Assembly (NCBI RefSeq): GCF_000215085.1
Contig: NC_015589.1
Location: forward strand, 2,554,120-2,618,119
From: Desulforamulus ruminis DSM 2154
Lineage (GTDB): Bacteria; Bacillota; Desulfotomaculia; Desulfotomaculales; Desulfotomaculaceae
Direction: 5' to 3'
Length of the DNA stretch: 64,000 bases
Part shown: piece after piece, positions 50,548 to 54,230 of the stretch
Layout: every line of letters begins with the position of its first letter
Position numbering within the stretch: the first letter of the stretch is position 1
Notes under the pieces: model-generated
What the model was told of the DNA's origin: nothing
Database searches by the model: none
What the model saw: only the letters and a program-made list of their open reading frames with translations
Translations under genes and position numbers: made by a program

Positions 50548-50827
50548 AATGAAGTTATTTGTGGCAAGGTAAACATTACGAGATTATTAAGAACATAACA
50601 GCATGGGCATCTTAATGTATCATTATACCCATAACTATATAAAGTCATAGAATCACCTGCAGCAACGTTCCGCTGTGCAGGCTCTCGGTGAGAAAGCCCC
50701 GCGAAGCCGGAAACGATCATGCTTATATCAAGCCGCCGCTTATATGGTATTTTAAAAATAAAAACCAATCAATCATTGTATTTTTTCTACCGTGTTGCAA
50801 AAATTTTAGCGATGTTATACTCTTAAT
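50548..50827. other. Intergenic region with a GC-rich structured core
   Basis: Around 50650-50720 the sequence is GC-rich with possible hairpins (GGCTTTCTC/GAGAGCC and CAGC/GCTG on the reverse strand) in an otherwise AT-rich gap. It could be a structured leader of the phosphatidyltransferase gene. It does not match any riboswitch consensus I know. Confidence 0.3.
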
Positions 50828-50920
50828 ATAATTATTTAACCTTTTCCCAGGACGATCTGGGGTATTGAGGTTCTTGAGCGAAGGAGCTTACAGGTGCCAT
50901 AGCCACCTGTAAGCTTTTTT
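50828..50920 (+). ncRNA. Candidate small RNA or leader with strong terminator
   Basis: TTGCAA (50795-50800) and TATACT (50816-50821) make a plausible though tightly spaced promoter (15 bp). The transcript of about 95 nt contains CCCAGGACGATCTGGG and ends in the perfect hairpin GCTTACAGGTG-CCATAGC-CACCTGTAAGC plus TTTTTT. No open frame with a ribosome-binding site is present. No family was recognised. Confidence 0.4.
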
Positions 50921-51022
50921 ATTGGTTGAAAGGCTGCCGGTTAGGGAGTCAAATAGGATCTACGGAAGGATCTTGTTTATAAAGAGGCAGATGGCTGCCA
51001 AATTTTACGAAAGGAGCAGGAC

Positions 51023-51655
51023 ATGACCAGAGAAATTGCAATCCATATGGGCCGGAACGGCAAAGCAGCAACACTGTATGAACGAGGAAAAACCGTGATA
51101 TATAAAAGAACCCAAGGGATCTGGACCTTGCAGCAGGAGAAAGATTTTTTTCTCCAACAGGGTCAAGACGTACCGGCCATGCGCCGGCAAATGGAAGAAC
51201 TAATCCAATTTCTCGGTGACTGTAAAATTTTGATCACCTCGGCCATGAATGGCATTCCCTATTATGAATTGGAAAAAGCCGGCTGCAAAATCTGGGAATG
51301 CTCCGGTTCCCCGCGTGAATTATTGGATCATGTATGGGAAAAGGAGCAACAAAGGATATTGACCAAAAACAATCCAGTGGCATCTATGCCCATACCGGAA
51401 AATTTGGGAAACGGCTGCTTCCGGATTTCAATTAAAGGGGTCCAGGGCTGCGGAGCCGGAGTTTCCTCCAAGCAAGTGCTGCTGCCCTTCCTGCGGCAAG
51501 TCCCCTTTGGCCAATTGGAGGTACTTTGCAGCCATATTCCGCCCTGGGTGGAAGCCGAGACCGTGGCCCGGGATTTAACCTGTGCCACCGAGCGTCTGGG
51601 GCCTGATGAATACAAATTGATACTGCGCAAAAAGTCTGATGAGGCGGACTTGTAA
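51023..51655 (+). CDS. AnfO-like protein (Fe-only-nitrogenase accessory family)
   Basis: 210 residues, AAAGGAGCAGG upstream. The N-terminal half reads MTREIAIHMGRNGKAATLYE, then KRTQGIWTLQQEKDF, then LIQFLGDCKILITSAMNGIP with YYELEKAGCKIWE, a pattern I associate with the AnfO family and its NifX/NafY-like cofactor-binding fold. Conserved Cys lie in GDCK, AGCK and GVQGCGAGVSS. No nitrogenase genes are in the window, and orphan AnfO-like genes do occur in anaerobes. The role is unknown. A gene for a dead integrase-core protein follows 75 bp on. Confidence 0.65.
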   Translation: MTREIAIHMGRNGKAATLYERGKTVIYKRTQGIWTLQQEKDFFLQQGQDVPAMRRQMEELIQFLGDCKILITSAMNGIPYYELEKAGCKIWECSGSPRELLDHVWEKEQQRILTKNNPVASMPIPENLGNGCFRISIKGVQGCGAGVSSKQVLLPFLRQVPFGQLEVLCSHIPPWVEAETVARDLTCATERLGPDEYKLILRKKSDEADL

Positions 51656-51730
51656 TGCCAAAATACTGCAAACAAATCAAGAAGAACTTTTTGGCAAGGA
51701 AATTTTTTGTCTACAAGGGGGAATTTCGCT

Positions 51731-52675
51731 ATGCCGTCCCATTCTCTTCAAATTTTATTTCCTGTAAAACAAAATCCTAGCGGACTAGAAATCATTCTCC
51801 TGGATAATGCCTTATCCTGCACAGAGTTTCATAAGACTGTTCCTGACCGGGTATCGTCTGTATCGGAGCCTTCCGGCCGGAACTGCGGCGGCAAATCTTC
51901 TCATGGGTTTTGTGCCAAAGATTTAACTGCCAAATCCCGGTTGCAGCAGCTATTGACGGCTTTATGCCTGAGCCACCCCTACTGGAATGATTTCCGGCTG
52001 CTGCATTTTTTGGAAAAACGCAATATAAAACTCTCTATGACTAAACTGCAAAAAATCAAAGAGGAATCGGGTCTCGACAATCGGAAAAACATTTGTAATG
52101 CCTTAATTCGACTATACTCCGCCGGAAAAATCAACCTAAACAGTCATCAAATAAGCTTTATCGAACGCATGCGGCCGGAATTTCGCGACCGTGACCTGCA
52201 AACGGAAAAGCCCGGCGAGATTCTTGTTTATGAGTGCCTTTTTGTCCGAACCCTAAAAGGCATGGGCAGGATCTATCTCCATACCTTTATCGATCGGTTT
52301 AATGGTTACCTTTTTAGTAAACTCAGTCAAAAACGTTCCCTCAGTGAAGGATTAAAGATGCTGACGAAAGAAATTATTCCTCTCTATCAGACCAACGGTT
52401 CACCGGTCCAAAAGGTTTTGCATACCACCGGGCCCCAGGAGGTTCTGGAAGAACAGCATTTTACGGAAAACCCGGAGGCGGAGTGGATTCCCACCCTTCG
52501 CTCCTTCGGGATGATTCAGGAATTCCAGCAGCGGTTCCTGGAGGATTTTTGTCAATGCCTGGAAACCCTTTCTATACCGCCAGCGCAACTGCCATCTTTC
52601 TTTGACCGGTGGCTGAGCAAGCATTACCCCCATCGCCAGTTTCATCAACCACGCCACTGGCTGGCCGACCAATAG
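51731..52675 (+). CDS. Transposase-derived (rve/integrase-core) protein with altered DDE residues
   Basis: 314 residues from the ATG at 51731 with AAGGGGGAA upstream. A helix-turn-helix-like region (SRLQQLLTALCLSHPYWNDF, then KLQKIKEESGLDNRKN) precedes an RNase-H-like core in which GEILVYECLFVRTLKGMGRI, then YLHTFIDRFNGYLFSKL, matches the IS3/IS481 core. The first catalytic Asp position holds Glu (VYEC), the second is lost (VLHTTGPQ where VLTDNG is usual), and the Glu position reads Gln (GMIQEF). The frame is intact and long. It looks like a domesticated, DNA-binding but non-cutting protein. Confidence 0.75.
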   Translation: MPSHSLQILFPVKQNPSGLEIILLDNALSCTEFHKTVPDRVSSVSEPSGRNCGGKSSHGFCAKDLTAKSRLQQLLTALCLSHPYWNDFRLLHFLEKRNIKLSMTKLQKIKEESGLDNRKNICNALIRLYSAGKINLNSHQISFIERMRPEFRDRDLQTEKPGEILVYECLFVRTLKGMGRIYLHTFIDRFNGYLFSKLSQKRSLSEGLKMLTKEIIPLYQTNGSPVQKVLHTTGPQEVLEEQHFTENPEAEWIPTLRSFGMIQEFQQRFLEDFCQCLETLSIPPAQLPSFFDRWLSKHYPHRQFHQPRHWLADQ

Positions 52676-53399: not shown

Positions 53400-53483
53400 C
53401 GATAACAGGTGATCCTAAGTCCCATTCATATTATAATTAAATAAGAAAATTTACTTATCCTCTTATTTTAGAAGGTGAGACCG

Positions 53484-54230
53484 TTGAATTATCAGCAAAA
53501 GATTGACCAATTGGTACACTTGATCAAAGAAGCGGGCCAGGTGCTTGCCCTTACCGGAGCCGGGGCCAGCACTGAAAGCGGCATTCCCGATTTCCGCAGC
53601 AAAGAGAGCGGTTTATGGAACGGTATGCCTGTTGAAGAATTGGCAAGTATTCGGGCCTTAAGAAAAGATCCTCAAAAGTTTTATGATTTTCATCTTAGAT
53701 GGTGGGAGGTCTGCCTTGGGGCCAAACCCAATGACACCCATTACGCTTTGGCCAAATTGGAACAAACGGGATGGCTGCTGGGGATTATTACCCAGAATAT
53801 TGACGGGCTGCACCAAAAAGCCGGTTCCCGGCATCTGTGGGAAGTGCACGGGCACCTGCGGACCTGTTATTGTCCGCAGTGCGGCCAAGAGTTTGCCATC
53901 AACCGCCTGAAGGAAGACTATCTCTGCCCTGATTGCGGATGGATACTGCGTCCTCGGGTGGTGCTCTTCGGCGACCCCATGCCAAAAGATTATTTTGTTG
54001 CCGAGAAGGTCCTTTCCGGCTGCCAGCTTCTACTGGTGGTGGGCACCAGTTTACAGGTCCATCCTGTGAACACCCTCCCGCAACGGGCCCGGCGTATGGT
54101 CATCATTAACCATGAACCCACCCCCTGGGACTCCTCTGCCGAACTTGTTTTCCGGGAATCTTCGGGAAAAGTATTGACAGACATAACAAAACATTTAGCC
54201 CATATTCCAGGTCCCTACTTTATAAAATGA
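53484..54230 (+). CDS. cobB: NAD-dependent protein deacylase (sirtuin, SIR2/CobB family)
   Basis: 248 residues from a TTG at 53484 with GAAGGTGAG upstream (a GTG at 53475 overlaps that site). NAD-binding GAGASTESGIPDFRS, TQNIDGLHQKAG and the catalytic His in WEVHGH are present, as is a zinc ribbon CPQC and CPDC. LRPRVVLFGDPMP and VVGTSLQVHPV are also there. It removes acetyl or acyl groups from lysines with NAD. Single gene with its own terminator. Confidence 0.93.
   Translation: MNYQQKIDQLVHLIKEAGQVLALTGAGASTESGIPDFRSKESGLWNGMPVEELASIRALRKDPQKFYDFHLRWWEVCLGAKPNDTHYALAKLEQTGWLLGIITQNIDGLHQKAGSRHLWEVHGHLRTCYCPQCGQEFAINRLKEDYLCPDCGWILRPRVVLFGDPMPKDYFVAEKVLSGCQLLLVVGTSLQVHPVNTLPQRARRMVIINHEPTPWDSSAELVFRESSGKVLTDITKHLAHIPGPYFIK

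Follow-up and report, generated by a model that had tools for sequence, protein, structure and literature searches.

An IS481-family transposase derivative without catalytic acids follows a divergent anfO gene in Desulforamulus ruminis and may serve nitrogen control

Transposase domestication is familiar from eukaryotes, but few cases have been documented in bacteria. TldR is reported to be a nuclease-dead TnpB that has become an RNA-guided transcription factor (PMC13418256), and TnpA-REP, or RAYT, is presented as a domesticated bacterial transposase (PMC8266576). In Azotobacter, AnfO is reported to prevent FeV-cofactor from entering the Fe-only nitrogenase (PMC9310841). Within a partial coverage that took in few subscription papers, no publication was found that describes regulators derived from IS481 or genes of this kind at amtB, and the accessible text of the IS481EU paper (PMC10045372) holds no bacterial domestication.

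The window analyzed here is a stretch of 64,000 nucleotides from the genome of Desulforamulus ruminis DSM 2154, which consists of one contig of 3,969,014 bases. Two adjacent genes were characterized, an AnfO-family gene (gene 1) and a transposition-dead IS481-like gene (gene 2, henceforth referred to as Q). The reading that we prefer, held tentatively and with slightly less than even confidence, is that Q is a cell-retained, uncatalytic IS481 derivative with a part in nitrogen control, either as a regulator that binds DNA or as a DNA-architecture protein.

Gene 1 (51023-51655, + strand) encodes 210 amino acids and is preceded by the ribosome-binding site AAAGGAG (51010-51016, + strand, read by eye). 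The sequence-only reading had called this gene AnfO-like, and the assignment holds: the protein matches PF09582 over its whole length (E 3.4e-67; 225.9 bits vs a gathering cut-off of 30.3), although it misses the cut-off of the AnfO equivalog model TIGR02940 (101.3 vs 129.15). The genome's own nif cluster, with four PF00148 matches and with nif names in the loci assigned by eye, lies 0.9 Mb from the window, in agreement with the earlier remark that the pair stands away from nif genes. Since that cluster contains its own AnfO (C1:3501056-3501667), the window gene is a second copy. No anf cluster was identified in the genome, where PF00148 matched the four nif-cluster genes and, more weakly, two single genes. 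In the AnfO tree, the resolution of which was weak, the window protein fell outside the genus group on a branch as long as 1.36. By its sequence, gene 1 is an AnfO homologue and a divergent second copy.

Upstream of anfO, a structured segment that may be a leader or a small RNA (50827-50925, + strand; MFE -36.7 kcal/mol, z -4.8) carries a strong terminator-like hairpin and a perfect 12-bp inverted repeat at 50885-50915. The small-RNA candidate of the sequence-only reading had been proposed there. Its promoter is weak, being read by eye as TTGCAA-15-TATACT, an arrangement absent from the list of the promoter scan, which allows spacers of 16-18. Comparison with Rfam gave no credible family; the best match, SNORD17, fell under its gathering score, and the matches were judged spurious. 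No counterpart of the leader was found in the other loci compared.

Gene 2 (51731-52675, + strand) encodes Q, a protein of 314 amino acids assigned by homology and alignments. The unbroken 314-codon frame beginning 75 bases past anfO, as described before, is present with its neighbor. The start was taken as ATG 51731 rather than as TTG 51707, which would give 322 codons, because the ribosome-binding site AAGGGGG (51715-51721, + strand) fits the ATG by eye. The terminator scan listed no + strand terminator between anfO and Q. By tblastn, Q residues 71-308 matched IS481-type transposases (24% identity; E 1e-14 for the transposase of a Mannheimia phage), and a plasmid tblastn likewise returned IS481-type transposases; together with the alignments and a match of 22.8 bits to the IS481 model NF033577 (cut-off 224), these results bear out the IS481-type ancestry proposed for the gene. 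The alignments also confirmed that all three DDE acids are changed, and in just the way that the sequence-only reading had named, placing Glu168 (52232-52234, + strand) in the first catalytic Asp column, Thr232 (52424-52426, + strand) in the second and Gln263 (52517-52519, + strand) in the catalytic Glu column. In the same alignments Q has a shortened core ahead of the third catalytic position, and the first helix-turn-helix and the C-terminus of the transposase are not recognizable. Terminal inverted repeats at Q were not above chance (score 9 vs a shuffle maximum of 10.5). Q is an IS481-family transposase derivative that has lost all of its catalytic acids and its terminal repeats.

The AlphaFold model of Q has a mean pLDDT of 60.8, with residues 1-66 and 233-258 disordered. 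The second helix-turn-helix is retained as three helices at residues 67-113 (51929-52069, + strand; pLDDT ~88), and a degenerate RNase-H-fold core spans residues 159-300 (52205-52630, + strand), with the integrase order of strands and helices at 164-280 in the model. Structure prediction thereby upheld the integrase fold that had been read from the letters, the core comparing with retroviral integrase cores at a VIA Z of ~10.9. The best Foldseek match was IstA (E 5.8e-4). Outside the helix-turn-helix and the core the model is poor, which counts against the preferred reading.

A search of 100 genomes, including the genome of origin and eight congeners, found only the one copy of Q (0/99 others), and among 398 genomes of the phylum (own included) matches occurred in only four others, all of them distant and IS481-like. 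A contig search with Q alone gave no match, and one with alignment A1 gave a single locus, L087. AnfO was present in 22 of 60 genomes and stood in a nif cluster setting in all 12 of the loci read. With Q confined to one genome in 100 and AnfO relatives inside nif clusters, a conserved anfO-Q module was rejected: the two genes are not neighbors elsewhere, and the two-gene module suggested by the sequence-only reading falls, while its proposal that the second gene was domesticated is not overturned by this result. The orphan status of Q in 100 relatives does count against our preferred explanation. Two further observations concern the surroundings of these genes. In genome G488, AnfO (L139:3643-4308) adjoins nitrogenase-like (NifD-related) genes in an order unlike the usual nif order. 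The Sir2-like gene downstream of Q (window 53475-54230) occurs in 4/8 congeners, amid other genes there.

More distant relatives were collected with search profiles built from Q and two homologues from genome G442, and then from nine proteins. Profile matches were found in 4/10 genomes of the G442 family, 4/29 of its class, 10/113 of the window's order and 11/397 of the phylum. Counting of catalytic residues separated 12 distinct intact elements from two broken lineages, A and B; incomplete rows (L043/L112, L108, L109, L114 and L119) were left unclassed. At the DDE positions, lineage A members carry D/N/E (L071), D/D/R (L072), D/D/D (L087), D/N/R (L088), D/H/E (L089), D/K/E (L090), D/D/K (L091) and A/D/R (L092), so that at least one residue is lost in 8/8 members, compared with all three in Q. 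Lineage B members, in which all three acids are changed, carry S/N/Q (L120:6479-7516), R/E/N (L121:6471-7535), R/E/D (L122:7068-8189) and R/K/N (L123:6803-7864). Six broken members scored 118-189 bits against NF033577 and eight intact controls scored 214-291, with 7/8 of the latter above 224. Inverted repeats exceeded the shuffle maximum in 11 of 17 intact elements (marginally in L125 and L128) and in 0/12 testable broken genes, Q included; L092 was set aside from this count because of masked bases in its flank (9 vs a shuffle maximum of 4).

The neighbors of the broken genes were consistent within each lineage. All seven lineage A genes in the G442 family adjoin amtB and/or glnK on the same strand, four of them upstream of amtB (L071, L088, L089, L090) and three downstream of glnK (L072, L091, L092); the identity of the L089 neighbors as an ammonium transporter and a PII protein was confirmed. 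The eighth member, L087, comes from a Desulfotomaculaceae genome and lacks neighboring nitrogen genes, which counts against the nitrogen reading. Q itself adjoins anfO, not amtB or glnK. Every lineage B gene (4/4, from four genomes) lies directly before a flavoprotein (flavin oxidoreductase) gene, followed in three of the four by a large Fe-S oxidoreductase gene and hypA. Neither amtB nor glnK stood beside an intact element in the intact-element loci read. Separately, an IS481-like transposase gene split by another insertion sequence (L073:4909-7158) was seen adjoining a urease operon.

In a 29-row tree, lineage A formed a clade (97/96), within which the members downstream of glnK were a nested clade (100/98). 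This nesting indicates that the amtB-glnK association was probably inherited, the gene having been duplicated along with it. Lineage B was also a clade (100/100). A single clade of A and B was rejected (AU p 0.0026), and catalysis was therefore probably lost at least twice, independently in the two lineages. Joining Q to lineage B was rejected (p 0.031); joining it to lineage A gave an AU p of 0.25, and the free tree placed Q, on a branch of length 3.13, just outside A. Q thus appears to lie near lineage A, not securely inside it, and this insecure placement counts against the preferred explanation. Purifying selection in lineage A after catalytic loss was observed in the one pair with usable divergence, L089/L090, both members of which lack the second Asp (dN 0.34, dS 2.96, dN/dS ~0.12); dS was saturated in all other pairs, where second codon positions were less changed than third. 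The selected broken relatives are independent precedents for domestication of Q.

A promoter box, TGTNAN6TGTTA, occurs at 17 exact sites across the 85 kb of seven lineage A loci, and 16 of these sites are upstream of a lineage A gene or amtB. It was absent from nine intact-IS481 loci (112 kb) and four lineage B loci (59 kb), and its background in samples of two such genomes was 5 sites in 400 kb (3 inside the lineage A locus) and 3 in 242 kb. The box is a direct repeat with an 11-bp period and forms arrays in L071, L072, L088-L091 and L217:14048-14138, all in one Bacillota family; before amtB the arrays have spacings of about 41, 52, 62-63 and 73 bp. The box was at first a candidate for the lineage A protein's own binding site. 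As proof of such binding it was rejected, because the array is also present before amtB-glnK (L217) in G286, a genome of the same family in which two profile searches detected no gene of lineage A. The G286 array instead marks the box as a wider, family-wide site, likely one of nitrogen control, and suggests co-regulation of the upstream lineage A genes with amtB rather than binding of the box by their products. We take its form to resemble, perhaps, the site of an OmpR/PhoP-like regulator. No such array was found near Q; this absence, and the occurrence of the box at the amtB of a genome in which no lineage A gene was detected, count against the preferred explanation for Q. The box was also seen at L071:10025-10113, with the gene of an IclR-like regulator on one side and a carB-like gene on the other.

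The most serious competitor, though unlikely, is that Q is what remains of a dying insertion sequence, its frame still open by luck and its place next to anfO due to chance. Consistent with this, Q is single-copy with an orthologue in 0/8 congeners, its branch is very long, its C-terminus is truncated and its N-terminus degenerate, and its in-frame codon score is low for the genome (rank 7 of 62), which counts against retention. The chance of a 314-codon stop-free frame at this base composition is 1.8e-7; since that figure alone ignores recent decay, neutral decay was simulated by introducing random point mutations into an intact gene, with indels uncounted. Q keeps 22/62 columns that are invariant in intact IS481 transposases when 11 intact rows are used, and 14/34 when 16 are used. 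Decay to 14/34 left 0/1000 stop-free frames (mean 9.3 stops), and decay to 22/62, begun from two different genes, left 0/400 for each, on the presumption that the columns without variation among the 16 intact elements were still present in the active ancestor of Q. Within that limit, and given an ancestor with those columns, most of the divergence of Q arose under frame protection. Neutral decay is very unlikely to leave such a frame, in line with the sequence-only reading, to which the unbroken frame had suggested selection, and the remnant explanation must also accommodate an intact ribosome-binding site and the loss of the inverted repeats. We infer from the simulation that Q itself has been under selection, and its domestication is thereby supported indirectly.

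A cell-retained Q might alternatively work in metal-cofactor handling as the partner of the divergent AnfO protein, using its core as a scaffold and binding no DNA. The two genes are adjacent on the same strand with no terminator listed between them, and both proteins are on long branches, as joint evolution would predict. However, the nif-cluster AnfO proteins of relatives have no such partner, and the helix-turn-helix is the best-preserved part of Q; we regard this partnership as improbable. A role of Q in inhibiting active IS481-like elements in a dominant-negative manner is very improbable. Dead transposases can form inactive mixed multimers, but the genome offers Q no close kin to inhibit: apart from Q itself, no related transposase turned up in it, either with Q as the query (E up to 1) or with the family profile (1e-20).

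Under the preferred reading, that of a retained DNA-binding regulator or architecture protein, an IS481-family transposase would have lost DNA cutting and joining while keeping a helix-turn-helix, predicted to bind DNA, and an inert RNase-H-fold core, which may mediate dimerization. AnfO and Q are probably co-transcribed from the leader-bearing promoter, and Q would be expressed with the genes that it serves, here the divergent AnfO, just as lineage A members would be expressed with ammonium uptake and PII. The lineage A relatives in ammonium-transport operons are probably DNA-binding regulators or DNA-architecture proteins, and by analogy the role of Q is probably one in nitrogen control. DNA binding, dimerization and the nitrogen role are what we infer for Q from fold, relatives and neighborhood.

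A broader interpretation is possible, though we put it forward cautiously: IS481 transposases may have been captured repeatedly in Bacillota as dead, selected nitrogen regulators, lineage A at amtB-glnK and Q at anfO, with Q representing, as part of that same proposal, a capture separate or very diverged from lineage A. If true, two independent broken lineages with conserved operon partners would show DDE transposases to be a recurrent source of regulators, and the captured proteins would be to DDE transposases what the nuclease-dead regulators are to TnpB. One lineage is tied to ammonium uptake and PII, and its loci are suited to tests. Such proteins are easily overlooked because family models score them only as sub-threshold transposases.

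The pair can be set against four described systems. Gene 1 resembles AnfO (PF09582) in its whole-length match and differs in lying below the TIGR02940 cut-off and having no adjoining nitrogenase genes. Q resembles IS481 transposases (NF033577; Pfam rve, HTH_32) in residues 71-308, in the second helix-turn-helix and in the order of the RNase-H core; it differs in its score (22.8 vs 224 bits), in having neither DDE residues nor inverted repeats, in a shorter loop before the third catalytic position and in a missing C-terminus. RAYTs are catalytically active Y1-type enzymes, whereas Q is of the DDE type and lacks its acids. The likeness is that of a transposase kept by a bacterial host as a single gene (PMC8266576). 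TldR belongs to a protein family unrelated to Q, and nothing points to a guide RNA for IS481 proteins; the principle in common is the retention, as a regulator, of a transposon enzyme that has lost its catalysis (PMC13418256).
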